Shown here: one piece after another, positions 24,718 to 51,924 of the stretch
How positions within the stretch are numbered: the first letter of the stretch is position 1
Layout of the letters: each line of letters opens with the position of its first letter
Assembly (NCBI GenBank): GCA_947499555.1
Contig: CANMOU010000001.1
Location: 1,302,001 to 1,366,000 of the forward strand
DNA: 64,000 nt
Reading direction: 5' to 3'
Source: an uncultured Roseovarius sp.
GTDB taxonomy: Bacteria > Pseudomonadota > Alphaproteobacteria > Rhodobacterales > Rhodobacteraceae
The notes under the pieces: generated by a model
What the model was told of the DNA's origin: nothing
What the model saw: only the letters and a program-made list of their open reading frames with translations
Database searches by the model: none
Position numbers and translations under genes: made by a program

Positions 24718-25902
24718 TTAGGGGCGCTCTGGAATATCCACCAGTTTGCCACGCGGGATTTCACAAGCCTTATCATAAAGCGGCATTTCGGTCAGCGTCG
24801 CGTTGGAAAATGATCCATCGCGCAGTTCCACCTCAACCGGATCGCCAAACCCATGCCCGGCTTGCGCCATCAAAACCATACCAATCCCCTGTTTGAGGAA
24901 GGGCGAGAATGCCGCGTTGGTAATCCGGCCCACAACCTGACCGCTGATCCGGGCCACACCGTTCACCTTTGGCTCGGCACCCTCGCAGATCAGGCCAAAA
25001 AGGCGCAATTCCTTGGGCCCCGCCGCAATCGCGGCCTTGCCGAGAAAATCGTCCTTGTCCATATCGACAAACCGGCCAAGCCCCATTTCGAAGGGGTTCG
25101 TCGCTTCATCAAAATCGGCTCCCGCATTTAAAATTCCTGCTTCAATTCGGCGGATATTCATCGAATCCAGGCCAAAAGTTGTCATTTCGTGATTTTTTCC
25201 GAATTTATCCAAATGTGTCCACAGGGCTTCGGCATCGTGGTGTGGTTCGGTGTAAAACTCCCACCCAAGCTCATTTGTATAGCCGGTGCGCGTAATCACC
25301 ACCTCCTGCCCACCAAAGTTAACGCGGGCAATCCCAAAATACCCAAACCGCTCTGGCAAACCGCCCTCTGCAGCCTCGGCCAGAATATCCAGCGCAAGCG
25401 GCCCCTGCACCTGGCTGACATAGACTTTCGGATCGCGGATCGTCACACTCATCCCCTTGGCATGCGCCCGCGCCCAGTTGAGAAAATCGCCATCGGCCTG
25501 CGCGTACCAGAACCGGTCTTGTTCAAGGCGCAAGAACACGCCGTCTGTGATCATCCCGCCCGTGTCCAGACAAGCAAGACCATAGCCACACCGACCCGGG
25601 CGTACCTTGGAAACGTCTTTTGTAAAGAGCAGGTTAAGCAGCTTTTCCGCGTCAGGTCCGGCAAACTCTATGGGCCATTCGCCGGTGTGCAGCACAGCGG
25701 CTTTCGTGCGCAACAGCCAGTATCCTTCAACCGTATCGAGAGCGTCCAGTTCACAAGCCATTAGTCTCCGATTGTAAACACAGTAATGCGGCCCCAAAGG
25801 CCGTTCGATCTCGTGGTAGGGATGGCGATCAATACCAAAATCCCAACCCTGCCCCGGCATCGTGGTTACAAGGTCGCGGGTCTTGCCGTCTGAGGAAATC
25901 AT
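24718..25902 (-). CDS. GcvT-like aminomethyltransferase family protein
   Basis: A 394-aa protein of the glycine-cleavage T/dimethylglycine-DMSP demethylase superfamily, which bind tetrahydrofolate and accept one-carbon units. Visible features include SQVQGPLALDILAE, TRTGYTNELGWEFY and the GcvT C-terminal barrel (PFLKQGIGMVLM). It is not the canonical GcvT (no gcvH/gcvP nearby) and its sequence differs from DmdA. It starts immediately after the Rieske oxygenase stop. I infer that it takes the methyl/formaldehyde unit released by the oxygenase. Confidence 0.78.
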   Translation of the reverse strand: MISSDGKTRDLVTTMPGQGWDFGIDRHPYHEIERPLGPHYCVYNRRLMACELDALDTVEGYWLLRTKAAVLHTGEWPIEFAGPDAEKLLNLLFTKDVSKVRPGRCGYGLACLDTGGMITDGVFLRLEQDRFWYAQADGDFLNWARAHAKGMSVTIRDPKVYVSQVQGPLALDILAEAAEGGLPERFGYFGIARVNFGGQEVVITRTGYTNELGWEFYTEPHHDAEALWTHLDKFGKNHEMTTFGLDSMNIRRIEAGILNAGADFDEATNPFEMGLGRFVDMDKDDFLGKAAIAAGPKELRLFGLICEGAEPKVNGVARISGQVVGRITNAAFSPFLKQGIGMVLMAQAGHGFGDPVEVELRDGSFSNATLTEMPLYDKACEIPRGKLVDIPERP

Positions 25903-39759: not shown

Positions 39760-39765
39760 GTGAAA

Positions 39766-40647
39766 ATGGCAATCAAGATCGACATGCTCCGCTGTTTTCA
39801 GACCGTGGCCGAGCGCGGCAACCTGAGCGATGCCGCCAAAGAGCTTGGGCGCACGCCGTCCGCTGTCTCGATGATGCTGCAGCAGTTGGAGGATCATATT
39901 GGCGCGCCGCTTTTCAAACCCGGGCGCAAATCGCATCTGACGCGGCTCGGAGAGCTGGTGCGTATCGAGGCCAAGCGAGAGCTTAATCACTTCGACCGGA
40001 CCGTTGCCGCCATCGAAGGCCTTTCGCGTGCCGAAGCGGGCCATGTCCGGATTGCCGTGACACCCTCGGTCGCGAAAGTACTGATGCCGCATGTTTTGCG
40101 CAGCTTTGCCAATCGTCATCCTGATGTGCGCATCGATATGCGCGATATCGACAGTGCCAGTATCGGCCATGAGCTTCAGGCCGGGCGCGTCGATATCGCG
40201 CTTGCCAGCCTGCGACCGATGCCGCGGTTCGAACGCCATTTGCTCTTCTCGGACCGGTTTGGCGTGATATGCCCGGCCGATCATCCATTGACGAAGAATT
40301 GGGAGGATCTGAACTGGCGGGACCTTCTGGAAATCCCTTTTATTGCCAATGACCTGGGGCAGTTGATCCCGGACCCGGAGTTTCGCCGCATTCTGGACAA
40401 TGCGACCCTGCATGTGCGCAACACCGCGTCGATGCTCAGCCTCGTACGCGCAGGCATGGGCGTGACGGTTCTGCCGGAACTTGCCGCGTTTGAGATGGGC
40501 GATGATCTGGCGTTTCTGCCACTGGCCGACAGCTCGATCCGGCGCGAGGTCTGGATGATCACACCACCGCTTCAGGATTTGTCCCCCGCTGCACTTGCGC
40601 TGGCAGAGGTCATTCGCGGGCAGAACATCCGGCTGGCGCATCGCTGA
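39766..40647 (+). CDS. LysR-family transcriptional regulator
   Basis: A 293-aa LTTR: MAIKIDMLRCFQTVAERGNLSDAAKELGRTPSAVSMMLQQLEDHIG holds the helix-turn-helix, followed by a full effector domain. It is co-directional with, and 95 bases upstream of, the five-gene ALDH-to-proline-racemase operon, so it is its likely regulator. The inverted repeats at 39717-39759 suggest self-control. ATG 39766 is used rather than the GTG six bases earlier. Confidence 0.88.
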   Translation: MAIKIDMLRCFQTVAERGNLSDAAKELGRTPSAVSMMLQQLEDHIGAPLFKPGRKSHLTRLGELVRIEAKRELNHFDRTVAAIEGLSRAEAGHVRIAVTPSVAKVLMPHVLRSFANRHPDVRIDMRDIDSASIGHELQAGRVDIALASLRPMPRFERHLLFSDRFGVICPADHPLTKNWEDLNWRDLLEIPFIANDLGQLIPDPEFRRILDNATLHVRNTASMLSLVRAGMGVTVLPELAAFEMGDDLAFLPLADSSIRREVWMITPPLQDLSPAALALAEVIRGQNIRLAHR

Positions 40648-40742: not shown

Positions 40743-42194
40743 ATGGCCGATGCCAAACAGAACTACATTGCTGGTGATTGGGTCAGTGGCCCAAGTGAGA
40801 TTGAGAACCGCAGCCCCTCAGACATAAGCGATGTGATCGGGCATTTCACCCAAGCGAGCCGCGCGCAGCTGAACGATGCGATCGGTGCGGCGCGTGATGC
40901 GCAACGCAGCTGGGCTGCCTACGGGCTGGAGCGCAAGCAGGCAGTTCTGCATGCCATTGGCTCTGAGATGATGGCGCGTGCCGAAGAGCTTGGCACGCTT
41001 TTGAGCCGCGAAGAAGGCAAACCGCTGGCGGAAGGCAAAGGCGAGGTCTATCGCGCGGGGCAGTTCTTTACGTATTACGCCCATGAAGTGCTGCGGCAAT
41101 TGGGAGAAAACGCCGATAGCGTGCGTCCCGATATCGAGATTGACATCCGCCGCGAGCCGGTGGGCACCGTGGCGATCATCAGCCCCTGGAATTTTCCAAC
41201 AGCCACGGCGAGCTGGAAGATCGCGCCTGCGCTGGCCTATGGCAACGCCGTGATCTGGAAACCTGCCAATATCACGCCTGCCTCGGCGGTGGCCCTGACT
41301 GAGATCATCGCCAGACAGGACATTCCTCCGGGGCTGTTCCAGCTTGTCATGGGGGCCGGTGGTGAAATCGGCCAGGCCTTGATCGAAAGCCCTGAAATTG
41401 ATGCGATTTCCTTTACCGGCTCCGTGCCAGTGGGGCGACAGATCGCCTCGACCGCAGCCGCGAATTTCACCCGGCTGCAACTTGAGATGGGATCGAAGAA
41501 CGCCCTTGCCGTGATGGATGACGCCGATCTTGATCTGGCCGTCACTCTGGCGCTAGGCGGTGCATTTGGTGGAACCGGGCAGAAATGCACGGCATCCTCT
41601 CGGCTGGTGGTGCATGAGGCAATACATGACGCCTTTGTCGAGAAACTCGTGGCCGGGGCCAAGGCGATGAAGGTTGGCCATGCGCTGGAAAACGGCACGC
41701 AAATGGGGCCGGTGGTCTCGGAACAGCAGCTGGGTGAAAACCTCGCCTACGTCGATCTGGGCAAATCCGAGGGGGCCGAGCTCGCCTGTGGCGGGGCACG
41801 GCTGGAGATGCCGCATGAGGGCTATTACATGTCCCCCGGTGTTTTCCTGAATAGCACCAATCACATGCGCATCAATCGCGAGGAAATGTTTGCCCCACTT
41901 ACGGCGGTGATCAAGGTCTCGGGCTATGACGAGGCGCTCAGCGTAGTCAATGACACGCATTTCGGCCTGACATCGGGTATCGTGACCACGTCACTGGCCC
42001 GGGCAAACCATTTCCGACGCCATGCGCAGACCGGCGTTGTCACGGTTAACCTGCCCACGGCGGGCACAGATTATCACGTTCAATTCGGCGGGCGCGGTGA
42101 CAGCTCTTATGGCCCGCGTGAGCAAGGCATTCATGCGCGCGAATTCTACACTATTGTCAAAACCGCCTATATCTCCTCCGGGACACCGCAATGA
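40743..42194 (+). CDS. aldehyde dehydrogenase, possible 2,5-dioxopentanoate (KGSA) dehydrogenase
   Basis: A 483-aa aldehyde dehydrogenase with LQLEMGSKNALAVMDDADLDLAV and catalytic Cys in GTGQKCTASSRLVV. The overall look is that of alpha-ketoglutarate-semialdehyde dehydrogenases, which finish hydroxyproline and sugar-acid catabolism. The proline-racemase-family gene in the same operon supports that, but the substrate is inferred. The stop overlaps the next gene by four bases. Confidence 0.85.
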   Translation: MADAKQNYIAGDWVSGPSEIENRSPSDISDVIGHFTQASRAQLNDAIGAARDAQRSWAAYGLERKQAVLHAIGSEMMARAEELGTLLSREEGKPLAEGKGEVYRAGQFFTYYAHEVLRQLGENADSVRPDIEIDIRREPVGTVAIISPWNFPTATASWKIAPALAYGNAVIWKPANITPASAVALTEIIARQDIPPGLFQLVMGAGGEIGQALIESPEIDAISFTGSVPVGRQIASTAAANFTRLQLEMGSKNALAVMDDADLDLAVTLALGGAFGGTGQKCTASSRLVVHEAIHDAFVEKLVAGAKAMKVGHALENGTQMGPVVSEQQLGENLAYVDLGKSEGAELACGGARLEMPHEGYYMSPGVFLNSTNHMRINREEMFAPLTAVIKVSGYDEALSVVNDTHFGLTSGIVTTSLARANHFRRHAQTGVVTVNLPTAGTDYHVQFGGRGDSSYGPREQGIHAREFYTIVKTAYISSGTPQ

Positions 42195-43174
42195 CCTATC
42201 GCATTGATTGCCTTCAATATTGCAACTGGTCGGAAGAGATTTTCCGCCAGATGCGCGAAGGCGGTCTTGATGCGGTGCATGTGACGATCGCCTATCACGA
42301 AACCTTTCGCGAAACTGTTCTGAACGTGGAGCAATGGAACCGCTGGTTTGAACAATACCCTGACCTGATCATGAAGGGGCGATGGGCCAGTGACGTCAAG
42401 CTGGCACATGAGACCGGGCGCACGGCAATATTCTTTGGGTTCCAGAACCCCTCGCCCATCGAGGATGATATCGGCCTTGTCGAGGTCTGGCATGATCTTG
42501 GCGCGCGGTTCATGCAGCTGACCTATAACAACCAGTCCTTGCTGGCGACCGGGTGCTATGAGGAGGAGGACCCCGGCCTTACCCGCATGGGCAAACAGGT
42601 GATCCGCGAGATGAACCGCGTGGGGCTTGTTGTGGATATGTCCCATTCGGCGGATCGTTCCACTATTGAAGCCGCTGACCAATCTGAACGCCCCATCGCA
42701 ATCACCCATGCCAACCCCTTGGATTGGCACCCCGCACGGCGCAACAAACCCAATGACGTCATTCGCGCGGTCGTGCAGAATGGTGGCATGATGGGCTTTT
42801 CGATTTATCCGCATCACCTGGCCGGAGGCAGTGACTGTACCCTCAAAGGGTTCTGCCAGATGATCGCTGACACGGCGGCGCGCTATGGTGTCACCCATTT
42901 CGGCATCGGCTCGGACCTGTGCCAGAACCAGCCCGACAGCATTGTCGAATGGATGCGCGTGGGACGCTGGAGCAAGGAAATCGACTATGGCGAAGGCTCT
43001 GCCGCCAATCCTGGATTTCCCAAACAGCCCTATTGGTTTCACACCAATGCCGATTTTCCGCGCATCGCCGAAGGGCTCAAGGAAGTGGGCTTTAACGCGC
43101 GCGAAATCGCTGACCTTATGGGCGACAACTGGTTCCGCTTCTTTGAAAAAAACTTCGTTCCGTCAGATGGTTGA
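42191..43174 (+). CDS. M19 (membrane dipeptidase)-like protein with altered metal site
   Basis: A 327-aa TIM-barrel protein of the renal dipeptidase family. Where M19 enzymes have DGHND, this one has DCLQY (His to Leu8, Asp to Tyr10), and the bridging Glu of GIEG is Gln85 (GFQN). The second half of the site is kept: DMSH (His152), THAN (His173), RNKPNDV and GIGSD (Asp242). It may bind one metal and act on something other than dipeptides. No signal peptide is seen. It overlaps both neighbours. Confidence 0.8.
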   Translation: MTYRIDCLQYCNWSEEIFRQMREGGLDAVHVTIAYHETFRETVLNVEQWNRWFEQYPDLIMKGRWASDVKLAHETGRTAIFFGFQNPSPIEDDIGLVEVWHDLGARFMQLTYNNQSLLATGCYEEEDPGLTRMGKQVIREMNRVGLVVDMSHSADRSTIEAADQSERPIAITHANPLDWHPARRNKPNDVIRAVVQNGGMMGFSIYPHHLAGGSDCTLKGFCQMIADTAARYGVTHFGIGSDLCQNQPDSIVEWMRVGRWSKEIDYGEGSAANPGFPKQPYWFHTNADFPRIAEGLKEVGFNAREIADLMGDNWFRFFEKNFVPSDG

Positions 43175-44843
43175 TGCGATTTCACCCCGCGACCCGAATG
43201 AGGTCATGAAGCTTGACCGGTTGGGTTCGGCGCATCAATGCCGCCTGAGTTTCATGCGCCAGCTTTTGCGGCGCATGAGCCGCGAAAACTGGGCTTTTGA
43301 GACACCGGTCTTCGACATTGATGCAAAAGGTGTGGGGCATGCGGTCTACACCGCAAGAGGCCCTGAACACAGCTATTCGCTTGTGGCCTTCGCCCATGAT
43401 CTGCCGCCCGAAAAACGCTCTGATCGGGTGATCGCAACGGCGTGGGACGCAACATTCACCTTGTTTGACGGGGTGCCCGACGCGGACGACATCGCAAGGC
43501 TGTCAAAGAACGTGCCGTTGCAAGAAGCCGGTCGGGTGAGTGACCGCGAGCTTAGCCTGTCGCGCGCCAATCGCTCCGTCCGGCTTTGGGATCATGTGGT
43601 CGATACGCTGGCTTCGGGCCAACAGCCAGACGCCGCGAAAGTGGGTGATGTTGGTTATCTGATGCGCACCACGGCGGTTTACGGATCGGGCAAGTTCGGG
43701 GCCGCTGACCGTGAACAGACACGCCACAGGCCGGAATGCGCAGGCCCATTTCAGGTTGAGATGCTGTCGGTCTATCTTACCCGCAGTTTCGTGATGGATC
43801 TGGTCGAGCACATGGCGCGCATGAAAGCACCGGACACCGCCGTGCCGATAGATCCGGACCTTCGGCGACGGTTTGGGATCGGCAATTCCACCGGGCTTGG
43901 CATGGCGCCGTTCCTGGTTACGCATCCCGCTTTGCTCAACGCGTGGGTTGGCGCCCGCGAAGAGGCGCTGTCCCGGGTGCGATCCTTGCCCAAGGCAACC
44001 GCGGACGAAGCCGCTGCTTTTCGTCTGCTTGTGGCGCGCGCCAGCCTGCATGCGAACGCATGGACATCTGAACATCCGTTACAAATCAATAAGTTACAGG
44101 CATTGCGCGCGGATATGATCGCCTTACAAGCGCATTTGGCGAAGGCTGATCTGATCTCGCAACAACCCTGGGACCGTCTGTGGGAATGGGCAAAAACCGC
44201 GCTGTCGCTGGAAGGTCAGGAACAACTCGCGGCGCTTCTACTTGAACCTTACGGTGATCTGGTGGATGGGCTGACCGAATGTATGGCCACCGACGAGCAC
44301 GTGACGTTTCCCATCGACGGAACCATGCGCACAAGCGTGCTGCGCGAAATCCTGGAAGGGGTTTACGGCTGGACCCTGACGATCGACTGGGACGCGCCGG
44401 AAAGCCACGCGCGTGTTTGGTACGTGTCAGAAGCAAAGCTCGAGCCGCGTCTGGGCGAGCGATATGAAGAGCCGATTGAACCCTATGAGCAACCACTTGG
44501 CCCGGGGCGCGATGCCGCACGGCTTTATGTGGCGCTTAAAGAGGTGGATACAAGCGTTGCGGCCTTCCTGCTGGCCCATCCGGAACATCGCCATATCGCG
44601 CGACGAGCCCAAATCGCCGCGCGCCTGCCGTATGCGGAAATCCGCGACAACACGTTGAGCGCCACGATGCTGCCCATCGACATGTTACGGCTCAAGCTAA
44701 GCTTTTTCGGGGCCTGCCATTTCGATCCGCGCTCGGATCGGTGGCTGCGGATCAACATGTTTCAGCATGCCCCCTTCCCCCACGAATTGGCGCAAGGCAG
44801 CGATGACTGGACCTTGCCGCCCCTGCCCATCGCCGCGCAATGA
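43167..44843 (+). CDS. conserved hypothetical protein, 558 aa
   Basis: I do not recognise this protein. It starts MVDAISPRDPNEVMKLDRLGSAHQCRLSFMRQLLRRM, has no signal peptide or membrane span, and is rich in charged and aromatic residues. Blocks that look conserved include RTTAVYGSGKFGAADREQ, FGIGNSTGLGMAPFLVTHP and SFFGACHFDPRSDRWLRINMFQH. ATG 43167 gives an 8-base overlap with the M19-like gene and a 4-base overlap with DUF3726, so it is an integral part of the operon and probably a cytoplasmic enzyme or enzyme partner. Confidence 0.75.
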   Translation: MVDAISPRDPNEVMKLDRLGSAHQCRLSFMRQLLRRMSRENWAFETPVFDIDAKGVGHAVYTARGPEHSYSLVAFAHDLPPEKRSDRVIATAWDATFTLFDGVPDADDIARLSKNVPLQEAGRVSDRELSLSRANRSVRLWDHVVDTLASGQQPDAAKVGDVGYLMRTTAVYGSGKFGAADREQTRHRPECAGPFQVEMLSVYLTRSFVMDLVEHMARMKAPDTAVPIDPDLRRRFGIGNSTGLGMAPFLVTHPALLNAWVGAREEALSRVRSLPKATADEAAAFRLLVARASLHANAWTSEHPLQINKLQALRADMIALQAHLAKADLISQQPWDRLWEWAKTALSLEGQEQLAALLLEPYGDLVDGLTECMATDEHVTFPIDGTMRTSVLREILEGVYGWTLTIDWDAPESHARVWYVSEAKLEPRLGERYEEPIEPYEQPLGPGRDAARLYVALKEVDTSVAAFLLAHPEHRHIARRAQIAARLPYAEIRDNTLSATMLPIDMLRLKLSFFGACHFDPRSDRWLRINMFQHAPFPHELAQGSDDWTLPPLPIAAQ

Positions 44844-45505
44844 GCTGGTCCATGAACGAGGTCGAAAGCCTCGCGCGGAAAGCCGTGCGGGGGGCTGGTT
44901 ATGATTGGGGCTTGGCCGAAGAGGCGGGCAAGGCCACGCGCTGGACCTGCGCCGCTGGATGGCCGGGCGCGACGGCGCTGGCGCATCTGCTGGACCACAC
45001 CAAGGATATGTCCAAAGCCGAACTTGGGCCAGCGTCCCTGACCGGGACATGGGTGGCAAAGCAGGGTGTCTTGTGTCCGATCACCACCGGGGCCAGCTTG
45101 TGTGATCTTGCCTCGGACTGGGCAGATGGCAGGATTGCCGAAATTGGTCCCGTGATGCAGCCCATGCTGCTTATTCCCTACTTGGTTTGGGCGGCGGACC
45201 GGACTGGCGCTGCGCTATCGCTCCGTTTGGAGGGTTTAAGGCTCACCCGCGCCGAAGGCGAAACTTATTTGCACGACCCGGATATCGCGCGTCAGGCGGC
45301 GCAGGCCGATTGGGTTCGAGTGGAGCCAGCGGGCGTACCGCCTGTGAAAGCGGATCTGGGCGCACGGCTCAACCGTGCCTACCGCGCAGAGCTGTCTCGC
45401 GAGACAGTGACTACCCTCAACAGGCTCGCGAAACGCACCTATGCGCCGGAGACAGAATCCAGTCGGCTCGGCGGTGCAGGTGCGGGGTTGAGCGACAATG
45501 ACTGA
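44840..45505 (+). CDS. DUF3726 family protein
   Basis: A 221-aa protein, MSWSMNEVESLARKAVRGAGYDWGLAEEAGKATRW, the N-terminal signature I associate with DUF3726, a family of unknown function. It has no signal peptide. The start overlaps the 558-aa gene by four bases and the end overlaps the proline-racemase-family gene by eight. The strict coupling suggests complex formation or sequential action with its neighbours. Confidence 0.75.
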   Translation: MSWSMNEVESLARKAVRGAGYDWGLAEEAGKATRWTCAAGWPGATALAHLLDHTKDMSKAELGPASLTGTWVAKQGVLCPITTGASLCDLASDWADGRIAEIGPVMQPMLLIPYLVWAADRTGAALSLRLEGLRLTRAEGETYLHDPDIARQAAQADWVRVEPAGVPPVKADLGARLNRAYRAELSRETVTTLNRLAKRTYAPETESSRLGGAGAGLSDND

Positions 45506-46574
45506 GGCCACAGATCGCATGCGCCGGTTGCAAACCATCACCGCTGTGGAGGCGCATGCGGAAGGAGAGCCGGGCCGGGTCATCGTTGCCGGGGCACCTT
45601 CATTGCCGGGCAACACGGTTTTCGAAAAGATGCAATACATGCAAGCGCATGAAGATCGGATACGCAAACGCATGCTGCGAGAACCGCGGGGACAACCGGC
45701 GCTTTGTGCCAACTTGATCGTGCCGCCCTGCCATCCCGACGCAGATGCCGGGTTCATCATCATGGAGCAAACGGAATACCCGCCCATGTCCGGCTCGAAC
45801 ACGATTTGCGTGGTCACGGTGCTGCTGGAAACCGGGATCTTGCCTATGATCGAGCCCGTGACCGACCTGACGCTGGAGGCACCGGCGGGATTGATCAAAG
45901 TGCGCGCCGATTGCATCGATGGCAAGGTAACGCGCGTGACATTTCGTAATGTTCCCGCCTTTGCCGTGCACCTTGATGCACCACTGGATGTGCCGGATCT
46001 GGGGCGGATCAAAGTCGATCTGGCCTGGGGTGGGATGTTTTACGTCATGGCGGATGCCGATGCGCTTGGCGTGTCGCTTGAAGCCGAAAATGGCGCGCAG
46101 ATTGTCCAGACCTCGGAGCGTATCCTGGCGGCTGCACGCGAACAGCTTCCCGTGAGCCATCCCGATAACCCCGCGATCACAGGGCCAACGATCAGCCAGC
46201 TTTTTGGCGCGCCCAGTGCCACCGGCACGCATGGCAGGAATGCCGTGACCGTCTCGACCGGAGGGTTTGACCCCAACCGCCCCCATGCGCTGCCCGGTAC
46301 ATTGGACCGATCACCTTGCGGCACGGGCACCTGCGCGCGCATGGCGGTGCTGCATGCGCGAGGAATGCTGGAGGTCGGACAGGACTACGTCCATGCCGGG
46401 CCACTTGGCACAACGTTCACTGGCCGGATCGAAGAGGTGACGCGCGTGGCGGGGCAGATGGCAATCTTGCCGACGCTCTCTGGGCAAGGCTGGATCTATG
46501 GCAAGACAGACTACACGCTTGATCCGACCGACCCGTTCCCGGAGGGATTCACAATCGGTGACATCTGGGCTTAG
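45498..46574 (+). CDS. proline racemase family protein (hydroxyproline epimerase/dehydratase-like, Ser/Cys type)
   Basis: A 358-aa protein of the proline racemase superfamily. The two catalytic positions read Ser98 (PPMSGSNT, where racemases have MCGH) and Cys274 (RSPCGTGTC). Cys/Cys pairs mark proline racemase and 4-hydroxyproline 2-epimerase, Cys/Thr marks trans-3-hydroxyproline dehydratase; as I recall, Ser/Cys members have shown both epimerase and dehydratase activity. It is the last gene of the coupled operon and ends 10 bases from convergent ribE. Confidence 0.87.
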   Translation: MTEATDRMRRLQTITAVEAHAEGEPGRVIVAGAPSLPGNTVFEKMQYMQAHEDRIRKRMLREPRGQPALCANLIVPPCHPDADAGFIIMEQTEYPPMSGSNTICVVTVLLETGILPMIEPVTDLTLEAPAGLIKVRADCIDGKVTRVTFRNVPAFAVHLDAPLDVPDLGRIKVDLAWGGMFYVMADADALGVSLEAENGAQIVQTSERILAAAREQLPVSHPDNPAITGPTISQLFGAPSATGTHGRNAVTVSTGGFDPNRPHALPGTLDRSPCGTGTCARMAVLHARGMLEVGQDYVHAGPLGTTFTGRIEEVTRVAGQMAILPTLSGQGWIYGKTDYTLDPTDPFPEGFTIGDIWA

Positions 46575-47340: not shown

Positions 47341-48639
47341 ATGTTGATGAGTGTGCCGCCTGTAGGCCAACGATCTTTCCTGTTTTTGCAGGGCCCGCAC
47401 GGGCCGTTTTTTGCGCGCCTTGGCGCAATGCTGACCCGGACAGGTGCGTCTGTCTGGCGTGTTGGCTTCAATGCAGGTGACGCACTTTTCTGGCGCGATA
47501 AATCGAGCTACATCCCGTTCAATGGCACGCAGACTGACTGGCGTCCGACCTTCCGGCTTTTGGTGGCCGAGAAGAAGATCACCGACATTGTGATTTACGG
47601 TGACACGCGGCCTATCCATGCGCAGGCGGTGCAGGAAGCCAAGGCTCTGGCGCTGACCGTTCATGTGTTCGAGGAAGGCTATATGCGGCCTTATTGGGTC
47701 ACCTACGAGCGCGGCGGCTCGAACGGACATTCGCGCCTGATGCATATGAGCGTTGAGAACATGCGCACGGCACTCAAGAATTCCGATATGGACAGCCCGC
47801 TGCCGCCCGCCTCTTGGGGGGATATGCGCCAGCATGTGTTTTACGGCGCGGTCTATCACGGCGCGGTGCTACTATTTAACGGCAATTACCGGAATTTCCG
47901 TCCGCATCGCGCGCTGAGTGTGCGCCAGGAATTCAAACTCTATCTCAAGCGGCTCTTGCTGATGCCAGCTCAGGCAATCGAGCGCCGGATCGCAACCGCC
48001 CGCATCCGCCACGGCGGCTTCCCCTATCATCTGGCCCTTTTGCAGCTGGAACATGATGCCTCGTTCCAGATGCATTCGCCCTTTTCCACGATGTCGGATT
48101 TTCTGGAAACGGTGCTGGAGAACTTTGCGGCCGGTGCACCGAAGCACCATCACCTTGTGGTCAAGGCCCATCCGCTTGAAGATGGCCGCGCGCCGATCCG
48201 CTCGGCGCTTAACAGGCTGGCAAAGAAGCATAATATCGCCAACCGGGTGCATTACGTGCGGGGCGGAAAGTTGGCCCAGCTTTTGGACGAAGCCCGCAGC
48301 GCCGTGACCGTGAATTCCACGGCTGCACAGCAGGTGCTCTGGCGCGGTATTCCGCTCAAGACTTTTGGGCAGGCCGTTTATGCCAAACCTGAATTCACAT
48401 CGACAAAACCCTTGCGCGACTTCTTTGCAGGGGCCGAACGACCAGACCGCAAGGCGTATGCCGATTATCGGCGGTACCTGCTGGAGACAAGCCAGGTCGC
48501 TGGCGGGTTTTACTCTGCCCGCGGACGCAGGCAACTTCTGCGCCAGACTGTCGATATGATGCTCAGCGCCGATGATCCCTATGACGCGCTGATTTCGGGC
48601 ACCGCGGCACCCCGGCAACAGTTATATGTCGTAAAATAG
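47341..48639 (+). CDS. kpsS: capsular polysaccharide biosynthesis protein, KpsS-like
   Basis: A 432-aa cytoplasmic protein with SFLFLQGPHGPFFARLGAML at the N-terminus and EEGYMRPYWVTYERGGSNGHS, then HHLVVKAHPLEDGR and VTVNSTAAQQVLWRGIPL. These match KpsS-type Kdo transferases that begin the poly-Kdo linker of group 2 capsules. It leads a three-gene capsule unit on the strand opposite to ribE, ribD and nrdR. Start at 47341 or ATG 47347. Confidence 0.88.
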   Translation: MLMSVPPVGQRSFLFLQGPHGPFFARLGAMLTRTGASVWRVGFNAGDALFWRDKSSYIPFNGTQTDWRPTFRLLVAEKKITDIVIYGDTRPIHAQAVQEAKALALTVHVFEEGYMRPYWVTYERGGSNGHSRLMHMSVENMRTALKNSDMDSPLPPASWGDMRQHVFYGAVYHGAVLLFNGNYRNFRPHRALSVRQEFKLYLKRLLLMPAQAIERRIATARIRHGGFPYHLALLQLEHDASFQMHSPFSTMSDFLETVLENFAAGAPKHHHLVVKAHPLEDGRAPIRSALNRLAKKHNIANRVHYVRGGKLAQLLDEARSAVTVNSTAAQQVLWRGIPLKTFGQAVYAKPEFTSTKPLRDFFAGAERPDRKAYADYRRYLLETSQVAGGFYSARGRRQLLRQTVDMMLSADDPYDALISGTAAPRQQLYVVK

Positions 48640-48736
48640 CCGACGGCGCGGCGCAGGCTGGATTTTTCCGAAATAGCCCATTACCTTAGTCCAAAATACT
48701 GAGGCAGTAAAAAAACAAGGTCGAGGAGACCGGGCA

Positions 48737-49885
48737 GTGAAAATCCATTCCAAACGATGGGCGAAGTCCGTCGCTATTTTGCTTGTGGCAAGCACAGTGG
48801 CGTCTTGCGGGATTCTCCCACGCTCCGGCCCGAGCAAAAGAGAAATCTTTGCTGGCTCGGTGCAGCAATCCGGCGATGCCTTTGTTGTGACGGTCAACGA
48901 TCGGGTCACGCGCGCGACCGCCGTGCAACCAACGCTTGGATTTTCAGAAGAGTTCAAATCGGCCGGTCTTGTAGGGTCTGACACGATCCGCCCGGGCGAT
49001 ACGCTTGGCCTGACGATCTGGGAAAACGTCGACGATGGCCTGCTGGCCGGGGAAGGCGTCAACCAGACCAGTTTGCAGGAAGTGCAGGTCGATGGTGCGG
49101 GATTCATCTTTGTGCCCTATGCGGGCCGGATCCGCGCCGCCGGAAACACGCCCGAGTCGATCCGCCGGATCATCACCTCGAAGCTTGATGAGCAGACCCC
49201 CGATCCACAGGTCGAGGTGCGTCGCCTTGCCGGTGATGGCGCCTCGGTCTCGCTGATCGGTGCGGTGGGCGGACAGGGTGTCTATCCGATTGAACGGCCG
49301 ACCCGCACGCTTTCAACCATGCTCGCGAATGCAGGTGGCGTCACCATTCAGCCCGAGACCGCACAAGTCACTGTTATTCGCGGAAATATGCGCTCCAAAG
49401 TATGGTTCCAGGATCTCTTCAATCACCCGAATTTCGACATCGCCCTGCGCGATGGTGACCGCATTCTGGTTGAAGAAGACACCCGTGCCTTCACCGCACT
49501 TGGCGCAACCGGTGGGCAGGCCCGCCTGCCCTTCCCGTCGCCAACGATCTCTGCAGTCGAAGCCATCGCGCAAGTGGGTGGTCTGAACACCAACACGGCT
49601 GATCCAACAGGCGTTTTCGTCATGCGCAACGAGCCACCGGAGATTGCCAATCAGGTCCTGGGCCGAACGGACCTTATCGGGGCGCAGCGCGTGGTTTACG
49701 TTCTGGACCTGACCCAACCCAATGGTCTTTTCATGGCGCGTGACTTCTCTATTCGCGACGACGACACGATCTACGTGACCGAGGCCCCGTTCACGCAGTG
49801 GAGCAAGGTCATTAGTGCGCTGACTGGTACGCTGGTCGCTGTGGGCTCCGTTTCAACCGCTGGCGACACGCTTAGCGGCAACTGA
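48737..49885 (+). CDS. polysaccharide export outer-membrane lipoprotein (Wza/KpsD-like)
   Basis: A 382-aa precursor with signal peptide and lipobox STVASC (Cys24), followed by a polysaccharide-export domain (IRPGDTLGLTIWENV...VDGAGFIFVPYAGRI) and SLBB-type repeats (SLIGAVGGQGVYPIE, ISAVEAIAQVGGLN). It probably forms the outer-membrane channel for the capsule. It ends at ATGA overlap with kpsC. The inner-membrane exporter KpsMT is not in the window. Confidence 0.9.
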   Translation: MKIHSKRWAKSVAILLVASTVASCGILPRSGPSKREIFAGSVQQSGDAFVVTVNDRVTRATAVQPTLGFSEEFKSAGLVGSDTIRPGDTLGLTIWENVDDGLLAGEGVNQTSLQEVQVDGAGFIFVPYAGRIRAAGNTPESIRRIITSKLDEQTPDPQVEVRRLAGDGASVSLIGAVGGQGVYPIERPTRTLSTMLANAGGVTIQPETAQVTVIRGNMRSKVWFQDLFNHPNFDIALRDGDRILVEEDTRAFTALGATGGQARLPFPSPTISAVEAIAQVGGLNTNTADPTGVFVMRNEPPEIANQVLGRTDLIGAQRVVYVLDLTQPNGLFMARDFSIRDDDTIYVTEAPFTQWSKVISALTGTLVAVGSVSTAGDTLSGN

Positions 49886-51924
49886 TGCCGCAGCCGGACG
49901 TCCAAGAGCCCGCCTGCGCCGATTGGTCCGGGCGGGTCTTTTACTTTAACGCGGGTTTTCTACGCCAGCGTCAGATCCGCCGGATCATGGAACTTGCGGG
50001 CTTGCCGCTGCAGCTTGGCAAACCGGGGCCGGACGACAAGATTGCCGTCTGGGGGCGTTCCCCCTATGCCGCACGTGGCGAAGCGGTTGCCGAGGCAACC
50101 GGTGCGGCACTCATACGAGTCGAGGATGCTTTTCTGCGATCCCTGCATCCGGGTCGAGACGGCGAGCCGCCTTTTGGCCTTTGCATTGATCAGACTGGTG
50201 TACATTTCGACAGCGCGCACCCTTCTGATCTTGAGGTCTTGCTGGCGACGCATCCGCTTGACGACACGGCGCTTATGGATCGCGCACGCGGTGCCATCGC
50301 CCGCCTGCGAGAGGCGCATCTGACAAAATACAGTGCTGTACCACTCGATGTGGATACACCTGAACCAGGATATGTTCTGGTCATTGACCAGACGCGAGGC
50401 GATGCCTCTGTCACCCATGGCGGCGCGGACGCCAACACCTTTCGAGAAATGCTGTATTTTGCTCAGGAAGAAAATCCCGGCGCCCGGATCCTGATTAAAA
50501 CCCATCCGGAAACCCGGGCCGGACATCGTGAGGGGTATTTCAGCGCGGAAGATGAAACCGACCGCATCTCGCTTATCTCGGACCCGATCAGCCCCTGGGT
50601 CCTTTTTGAAGGGGCTGTGGCGGTCTACACGGTGTCGTCTCAGCTTGGCTTTGAGGCGATCTTTGCCGATCACAAACCGCATGTCTTTGGCCAGCCCTTC
50701 TATGCCGGGTGGGACCTGACGCAAGATCGCCACCCGCTCCGCCTCTCACGGCGACAGCGGAACCTCAGCCGGGCGCAGCTTTTTGCGGCGGCGATGATCC
50801 TCTACCCAATCTGGTATGATCCCTATCGCGACCAACTCTGCGAGCTGGAGGATGTCGTTGCCATGATGGAGGCGCGGACGCGCGCCTGGCGTGAAGATCA
50901 CAAGGGCTGGGTCGCATCGGGCATGCGCCTGTGGAAGCGCAGACCGTTACAGCATTTCTTCGGATCCGAAAAACCGATTTTATTTCAGGATTATAAGAAG
51001 CGTACCTCATCTGGCGTATCAAAAGGCAACCGGCGGCAAATGATCTGGAGCAACACCGCCGATGACGACAGTTCGGCGGTGCGTGTAGAAGACGGTTTCC
51101 TGCGGTCCCGCGGTCTTGGGGCAGAGCTTGTGCCGGCCCTGTCGCTTGTCTGCGACGATCTTGGGATTTACTACGACCCGGCCCGCGAAAGCCGCCTAGA
51201 GCACTGGATCGGCGAACGCGCAAACCTGCGCCCGGATCAGGATCAGCGCGCCGAACGTCTGATCGCGCAGATTTGCGACATGGGGCTGAGCAAATACAAT
51301 CTCGGGGGCAAACAACCGGAATTGCCCAAGGGCCACCGCATTCTGGTGCCCGGTCAGGTGGAAGATGACGCTTCTATCCTGACCGGGGCGGGAAGCATTC
51401 GCAGCAATCTCGCGCTTTTGCAGAAGGTGCGAACGGAAAATCCTGATGCGGTTCTTCTTTACAAGCCGCACCCGGATGTGGAGGCCGGTTTGCGGCTGGG
51501 CCTGGTCGACCCTAATGCACTTGCGGAGTTGAACTGCGCGGTTCTGGCCAATACGGATCCAGCCGCAGTGATGTTGGACATCGCGGAAGTCTGGACCATG
51601 ACCTCTCTACTGGGGTTCGAAGCGCTTTTGCGTGGTGTCCCGGTAACCACGACGGGCGCTCCATTTTATGCGGGCTGGGGTCTAACGCGTGATCTTGGCG
51701 AAACCCCGGCAAGGCGGCAAGCGCGTCCCACTCTGGCAGGGCTGGTTCACGCTGCCCTGATTGACTATACCCGCTACTTCGATCCGGTCACGCGCCAACC
51801 TTGTCCGGTTGAGGTTGCACTCGACCGGCTGGCATCAGGCGACATCCCGCATCCGGGCGCGGCCAACAGGATGTTGTCAAAACTGCAAGGCCTTCTTGCA
51901 AGTTACGCGAGGTTTTGGCGCTAG
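49885..51924 (+). CDS. kpsC: capsular polysaccharide biosynthesis protein KpsC (two-domain Kdo transferase)
   Basis: A 679-aa protein with two related Kdo-transferase domains. Parallel motifs appear twice: VEDAFLRSLHPG / VEDGFLRSRGLG, YVLVIDQTRGDASVTHGGAD / ILVPGQVEDDASILTG, KTHPETRAGHREG / KPHPDVEAGLRLG, and PFYAGWDLTQD / PFYAGWGLTRD. In group 2 capsules KpsC extends the poly-Kdo linker on a lysophospholipid with KpsS. The start overlaps the lipoprotein gene stop. Confidence 0.95.
   Translation: MPQPDVQEPACADWSGRVFYFNAGFLRQRQIRRIMELAGLPLQLGKPGPDDKIAVWGRSPYAARGEAVAEATGAALIRVEDAFLRSLHPGRDGEPPFGLCIDQTGVHFDSAHPSDLEVLLATHPLDDTALMDRARGAIARLREAHLTKYSAVPLDVDTPEPGYVLVIDQTRGDASVTHGGADANTFREMLYFAQEENPGARILIKTHPETRAGHREGYFSAEDETDRISLISDPISPWVLFEGAVAVYTVSSQLGFEAIFADHKPHVFGQPFYAGWDLTQDRHPLRLSRRQRNLSRAQLFAAAMILYPIWYDPYRDQLCELEDVVAMMEARTRAWREDHKGWVASGMRLWKRRPLQHFFGSEKPILFQDYKKRTSSGVSKGNRRQMIWSNTADDDSSAVRVEDGFLRSRGLGAELVPALSLVCDDLGIYYDPARESRLEHWIGERANLRPDQDQRAERLIAQICDMGLSKYNLGGKQPELPKGHRILVPGQVEDDASILTGAGSIRSNLALLQKVRTENPDAVLLYKPHPDVEAGLRLGLVDPNALAELNCAVLANTDPAAVMLDIAEVWTMTSLLGFEALLRGVPVTTTGAPFYAGWGLTRDLGETPARRQARPTLAGLVHAALIDYTRYFDPVTRQPCPVEVALDRLASGDIPHPGAANRMLSKLQGLLASYARFWR

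Follow-up and report, generated by a model that had tools for sequence, protein, structure and literature searches.

What is the function of a tightly packed operon in which two of the five genes code for uncharacterised proteins? This question is raised by a locus in a stretch of 64,000 nucleotides (the whole stretch being referred to below as the window) from an uncultured Roseovarius sp. (assembly GCA_947499555.1, contig CANMOU010000001.1, positions 1,302,001 to 1,366,000), for which an original prediction had proposed a variant route of hydroxyproline catabolism. As that prediction described, a LysR-family regulator gene, probably controlling the operon (39760..40647, plus strand; Pfam LysR_substrate/HTH_1), ends 95 bases before a run of five plus-strand genes whose open reading frames (ORFs) overlap consecutively by 4, 8, 4 and 8 bases. 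They encode an aldehyde dehydrogenase (ALDH; 483 amino acids (aa), 40743..42194; Pfam Aldedh), an M19-like amidohydrolase with an altered metal site (327 aa, 42191..43174; Pfam Peptidase_M19), a 558-aa protein outside the Pfam and NCBIfam families that we call U558 (43167..44843; ORF call and AF2 model), a DUF3726 protein with a predicted Ldh_2 fold (221 aa, 44840..45505; Pfam DUF3726) and a protein of the proline racemase superfamily (358 aa, 45498..46574; Pfam Pro_racemase). On the 3' side a convergent gene, a riboflavin synthase by its sequence appearance, ends 10 bases away. We consider it reasonably probable that the operon serves the breakdown of an N-methylated cyclic betaine, with homarine (N-methylpicolinate) as the likeliest compound, the substrate being the weakest step of this reading.

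The Pfam scan of the window proteins matched LysR, Aldedh, Peptidase_M19, DUF3726 (E 3.6e-18) and Pro_racemase, and when the NCBIfam rows were judged against their curated cut-offs none of the operon proteins reached one among the matches listed. The neighbourhood of U558 was compared in other genomes, with the ORFs of the relatives' loci called by a greedy script. Of 159 U558 loci, 124 remained after dereplication at 80%, 113 had sufficient flanking sequence and 108 carried a protein at least 40% identical to U558 of the window. U558 is present in 53 of 385 sampled class genomes, some of them of 1.2-1.4 Mb, and in 50 of 60 sampled genomes of the genus. A scan of named genomes, in which the best 80 of 585 confirmed candidate loci were examined, retrieved mostly Rhodobacteraceae-type genera (for example Roseovarius, Ruegeria, Shimia); SAR116, Rhizobiaceae, Acidimicrobiales and Granulosicoccus also appear among the record labels. 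Plasmid records matching U558 numbered 168, among them one of Phaeobacter inhibens DSM 17395 on which LysR, ALDH, M19, U558 and DUF3726 genes are consecutive (L071, PGA1_RS18995-RS19015) and U558 is annotated as 'hypothetical protein'; the plasmid of this strain has a second U558 site as well. In the P. inhibens locus (L071, 14876-20316) a cluster of genes for dimethylsulfoniopropionate (DMSP) demethylase, an AMP-binding protein, methylthioacryloyl-CoA hydratase and acyl-CoA dehydrogenase adjoins the module.

Among the 108 dereplicated loci the DUF3726 gene lies immediately 3' of U558 in 94, always in the next place downstream, and an M19 gene lies at most four genes away in 97, one or two places upstream in 96, the M19 counts being lower bounds since an antisense ORF masks this gene in the window and in a few other loci. 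Within nine genes of U558 we further counted ALDH in 74 loci, LysR in 61, Ldh_2 in 38, RidA in 7 and the racemase-family gene in 5. From these neighbourhood counts M19-U558-DUF3726 is the core, ALDH and LysR are the usual additions and the racemase-family gene is a local one. The synteny is above chance and recurs across Alphaproteobacteria and in the records labelled Acidimicrobiales and Granulosicoccus. The original prediction, which had staked itself on co-occurrence of these genes elsewhere, is thus clearly right that this is a genuine module with two uncharacterised members; U558, DUF3726 and M19 travel together, but the racemase-family gene does not belong to the set. Distant U558 paralogues of 29-34% identity were seen in loci L119, L130 and L064-L067, and in the first two they sit beside other ALDH genes and an ABC-transporter ATPase; because of these different neighbours, the U558 family may serve other substrates as well. 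In SAR116-type and other loci (L040, L196, L200, L202, L203) the opposite strand after the module holds a further ALDH gene, one for an EamA carrier and/or one for a class-III aminotransferase.

The first pointer to the substrate comes from transporter genes. In the undereplicated set 27 loci have, immediately ahead of U558, the gene of a carrier of the betaine/carnitine/choline type (BCCT; variant BCCTa); a second type (BCCTb) is usually positioned after the module. In other loci ProX/ProW/ProV genes of a glycine-betaine-type ABC system adjoin it, and in L131 ProXWV is contiguous after DUF3726, reads in the same direction and overlaps by 4 bases at two of the junctions. In the 108 dereplicated loci the counts within nine genes of U558 are 18 for BCCTa, 11 for BCCTb and 11 for ProX.

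The second pointer is the linkage to N-methylglutamate dehydrogenase (mgd). The window genome carries gmaS above cut-off with mgs-like neighbours. It also has a SoxBDAG-type set, with an AraC-type regulator next to it, and another set that is SoxA-like; we call the first set mgd because its large subunit resembles, at 60-66% identity, copies at most 7 kb from gmaS in three relatives (G446, G449, G450). It is in relatives only that mgd was found next to the module: it adjoins the U558 genes in genomes G331 and G065 and in five loci (L167, L173, L176, L180 and L182) from Shimia litoralis and a further Shimia, Phaeobacter italicus, Marivivens donghaensis and strain EhC02, the cluster order in Marivivens and EhC02 being mgd, LysR, ALDH, M19, U558, DUF3726, Ldh_2, ProXWV. 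In a 28-row tree, which carried a long-branch warning on its SoxA rows, U558-linked and gmaS-linked copies are mixed in one 16-member clade (support 98/97) that excludes both SoxA and a third paralogue. Three small genomes (G207, G297, G161) have SoxBDAG-family copies within 10 kb of the module, outside the firm mgd clade. No gmaS match was obtained at E 1e-130 in G331 and G065, though mgd is present; the usual methylamine route thus seems to be missing from these two genomes and not to be what their mgd is for. At a threshold of 58% identity or more, mgd was found, among the matches listed, in 14 of the 53 genomes with U558 and in 11 of the 332 without it (p 2.4e-7, uncorrected for phylogeny). 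This threshold leaves out G154, of the third paralogue clade, and at 57% or above the same matches give 15/53 against 12/332. Setting aside four U558 matches below 40% identity (G057, G122, G338, G373), the figures for the matches listed become 13/49 and 12/336 (p 8e-7). Linkage on the same contig within 10 kb occurs in 5 of 47 genomes with both matches against 0.83 expected (p 0.002), an estimate in which G207 and G297, members of the same genus, enter as two cases. In a 2026 paper (PMC13390433) Mgd is said to take part in homarine catabolism, and tmaR-mgd linkage to persist in strains without the upstream trimethylamine genes.

A further clue lies in an apparently exchangeable partner of the core. 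In the undereplicated set 43 loci have Ldh_2 immediately behind DUF3726, and all but one of the 7 mgd-linked loci contain it (6 of 7, p 0.007). In all 159 loci it (48) never shares a neighbourhood with RidA (11) or with the racemase-family gene (11); after dereplication RidA is found in 0 of 38 loci with Ldh_2 against 7 of 70 others (p 0.050) and the racemase-family gene in 0 of 38 against 5 of 70 (p 0.16), so that the evidence for the two exclusions comes from 7 and 5 dereplicated loci, respectively. The Ldh_2 family includes a cyclic-imine reductase (1wtj, delta1-piperideine-2-carboxylate reductase), RidA hydrolyses imines and the two never co-occur. Therefore, the product of the module would be an imine or enamine, with reduction and hydrolysis as its alternative fates.

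Two of the enzymes can be read with some detail. The M19-like protein matches Peptidase_M19 far above the Pfam cut-off (E 1.1e-69, 235.5 bits against 26), the family of the M19 membrane dipeptidases, in which an HxD motif, a bridging Glu and two His are the ligands of a binuclear metal site. Here two His and an Asp are kept, whereas Gln85 stands where GliJ has Glu and the N-terminal HxD is missing. This alteration, which had been called a broken metal site, is fixed across homologues: in 137 rows (not dereplicated) H152, H173 and D242 are invariant (137/137), Q85 is found in 136, and HxD was not found near the N-terminus of these rows, the alignments to classical M19 enzymes beginning after that motif. 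The closest solved relative is 2i5g, an 'amidohydrolase' that we take to be Pseudomonas PA5396, located beside betaine genes. The protein may thus remove an N-formyl group or hydrolyse another amide. As for ALDH, the best-scoring NCBIfam models are those of 2,5-dioxovalerate and alpha-ketoglutaric semialdehyde dehydrogenases, with scores that stay below their cut-offs; the enzyme would turn a ring-opened semialdehyde into a glutarate-type acid.

The main interest is in the two uncharacterised proteins, U558 and DUF3726. Searches of Pfam and NCBIfam assigned U558 to no family, 33 homologues yielding single chance-level rows only, and a longer frame of the gene (42885-44840) gave one chance-level Pfam row (THDPS_M, E 0.057). 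Structure prediction produced a confident AF2 model (pLDDT 90) for which no matching fold was found in the PDB. The predicted fold of DUF3726 is a shortened version of that of the Ldh_2 family (type-2 malate/lactate dehydrogenases), with a mean length of 211 aa against 346. The motifs GTNP, GGYKG and SHG of Ldh_2 serve in binding nicotinamide adenine dinucleotide (NAD) or in catalysis. All three are present in 11 of 11 Ldh_2 sequences, whereas in DUF3726 (29 rows; L045, L065, L066 and L069 were dropped from this alignment and some starts trimmed) they occur 0, 0 and 1 times; DUF3726 carries a conserved C-terminal tail (SRxxGAGAGLxDND). In the literature searched DUF3726 is unnamed and no paper describing the module genes was found, U558 having no searchable name. 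What is new in the locus is a protein without recognised fold together with a predicted shortened Ldh_2-type partner that lacks GTNP and GGYKG and keeps its own tail. U558 would be the catalytic subunit acting on the ring and DUF3726 its partner subunit. It is tempting to go further, although we regard this only as a tentative and rather doubtful proposal, and to see in the pair a new two-subunit enzyme class for the metal-free opening of the N-methylpyridinium ring, in which U558 has a fold absent from the PDB, DUF3726, a pseudo-subunit descended from a dehydrogenase, has lost its NAD part and presents its tail to the active site, and the resulting N-methylimine is finished by Ldh_2 reduction, RidA hydrolysis or, in the genus of the window, the racemase-family enzyme.

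What the analysis establishes is the order of the genes, their synteny, the linkage of transporters and of mgd to the module in relatives, the predicted folds and the conserved residues. The route fitted to these is putative in its substrate, in every reaction and in the U558-DUF3726 complex. Homarine would enter through BCCT or ProXWV transporters, and U558 with DUF3726 would reduce the pyridinium ring and open it between C5 and C6 to an N-formyl-N-methyl semialdehyde. ALDH would oxidise the aldehyde and the M19-like amidohydrolase would take off formate, leaving an N-methylimine or enamine of 2-oxoglutarate. Where Ldh_2 is present it would reduce this N-methylimine to N-methyl-L-glutamate, which Mgd would convert to glutamate. 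Where Ldh_2 is absent, as in the window genome, RidA or spontaneous hydrolysis would release 2-oxoglutarate and methylamine, the latter being usable by GmaS, Mgs and Mgd, all with candidates in that genome. By calculation the atom balance closes with one O2 (homarine + O2 + 2 H2O + 2[H] -> N-methylglutamate + formate). A comparable logic is offered by trigonelline degradation in Acinetobacter baylyi (TrgABCD), where a two-component flavin monooxygenase is said to open the ring. Both systems would act on an N-methylpyridinium carboxylate and include an aldehyde dehydrogenase as well as an amide hydrolase by which formate would be freed. They differ in that ring opening is here proposed for U558 and DUF3726 and the hydrolase is of M19 type; Pfam revealed no two-component flavin monooxygenase family among the operon proteins. 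For homABCDER, a possible name of the homarine genes, no matching paper was found. Homarine catabolism itself was reported in 2026 (Ferrer-Gonzalez et al., Nat Microbiol, doi 10.1038/s41564-026-02313-7, as cited in PMC13390433) with the involvement of Mgd, whose genes adjoin our module in several relatives. The window locus departs from it in having no linked Ldh_2 or mgd and a racemase-family gene at its 3' end. The widespread module is probably part of that route.

Several observations weigh against homarine as the substrate or against the route as drawn. Our locus counts and tests are uncorrected for phylogeny. In the window genome the operon has no transporter of its own, no transporter search having been made elsewhere in it; mgd lies on another contig, both mgd and gmaS-mgs are far from the operon, and no Ldh_2 ortholog was found, the best match being 39% identical. 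Among the matches listed, 39 of the 53 class genomes with U558 have no mgd of at least 58% identity; G444 and G451 have U558 and Ldh_2 and, on the mgd side, only the third paralogue (55-56%) and SoxA; and mgd is found within nine genes in only 7 of the 108 loci, one of which (L063) is of unsettled class. Pfam recognised no cofactor-binding family in U558, homologues included. Finally, genes resembling TauD-type 2-oxoglutarate oxygenases, which the proposed route does not explain, lie within nine genes of U558 in 5 of the 108 loci (L041, L051, L052, L062, L190), closest in L062 and L041.

Other substrates have then to be weighed. The best placed of them are proline betaine, N-methylproline or hydroxyproline betaine, whose five-membered ring would be oxidised and opened to N-methylglutamate semialdehyde, with ALDH forming N-methylglutamate for Mgd and, in the genus of the window, the racemase-family enzyme acting on a hydroxylated ring. 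The same transporters and the same product would suit, ALDH resembles semialdehyde dehydrogenases, and enzymes of the proline racemase superfamily use five-ring substrates (eLife 2014, PMC4113996). Nevertheless, we judge this unlikely: a Pfam scan of 30 proteins from the neighbourhoods, a subset of the neighbours, found neither a Rieske demethylase nor a proline dehydrogenase, the M19-type hydrolase would have no obvious task, and the racemase-family gene is confined to 5 of 108 loci. A substrate resembling carnitine, glycine betaine or DMSP, or some other betaine or N-methyl compound of this sort, with the M19 protein acting like its closest solved relative, an amidohydrolase from a betaine gene region, would agree with the annotation of 2i5g, with the many betaines that BCCT and ProXWV carry, with the nearby TauD-type oxygenases and with the DMSP demethylase cluster next door in P. 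inhibens. However, no carnitine, glycine-betaine or DMSP route is known to pass through N-methylglutamate, yet mgd linkage recurs, also without a gmaS match, which makes such a substrate distinctly improbable in our estimation.

The racemase-family gene, on which the hydroxyproline proposal partly rested, deserves separate consideration. Its product does have the Ser/Cys pair attributed to it (Ser98 and Cys274, with Asn101 three residues past the Ser), and shares this Ser-Asn motif and Ser-Cys dyad with Ser/Cys members of the superfamily such as B9JQV3. According to the same eLife paper, Ser/Cys is found in a 4-hydroxyproline epimerase and Ser/Thr in a trans-3-hydroxyproline dehydratase. Membership in a curated trans-3-hydroxyproline dehydratase or 4-hydroxyproline epimerase family was not supported, since all 6 matching NCBIfam models score below cut-off, the best being T3LHypDht with 371.7 bits against 550. 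With an identity threshold of 70%, orthologues were seen in 8 of the 60 sampled relatives, own genome counted. In G439, G416, G392 and Roseovarius aestuarii (L142) the gene comes directly 3' of DUF3726 and does not overlap it, whereas four congeners (G398, G411, G400, G429) have it behind a DUF2189 gene. Its place in G387 and G393 is separate from the module, between a thioesterase gene and the riboflavin-synthase gene. It is therefore a lineage-specific neighbour outside the conserved core.

The Pfam scan found neither a D-amino-acid oxidase (DAO) nor a DHDPS-type deaminase within the operon, steps for which the two uncharacterised proteins had been suggested as possible stand-ins. The same genome has candidates for both, together with a second racemase-family gene, some 51 kb past the operon and outside the window (L245, 9020-12277; contig C1, about 1399.5-1402.8 kb), in what is likely a hydroxyproline cluster, a genomic context unlike that of the racemase-family gene here; hence no replacement enzymes are needed in the operon, and the supposed substitution was not borne out. 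A variant hydroxyproline pathway is very hard to sustain: the overlap of the racemase-family gene with DUF3726 in the window, its position directly behind it in three close congeners and R. aestuarii and the top scores of ALDH would favour it, but the racemase-family, DAO and DHDPS set elsewhere in the genome, the rarity of the gene in module loci and its separate location in G387 and G393 stand against it, and the module is widespread without this gene, with neighbours that point to betaines and N-methylglutamate.

Other features of the window were noted in passing. Beyond the riboflavin-synthase gene (47341-51924, plus strand) a polysaccharide-export-like gene lies between two capsule-export-like genes, named by sequence appearance, and a capsule/polysaccharide-export-like block of this kind adjoins the U558 module or the racemase-family gene in many congeners. 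Within a 394-aa open frame, positions 24763-25671 (minus strand) resemble the C-terminal (GcvT-like) part of SoxA, possibly marking a demethylase relative.

Homarine is an abundant diatom osmolyte that is quickly drawn down by Ruegeria pomeroyi (PMC12817926). If homarine is indeed the substrate of the module, a single protein whose fold is not recognised, together with one DUF, would account for the opening of the N-methylpyridinium ring in marine bacteria, and the module would be usable as a marker of homarine carbon and nitrogen flux. The exchange among Ldh_2, RidA and the racemase-family gene would then predict which lineages free methylamine and which retain the nitrogen as N-methylglutamate.

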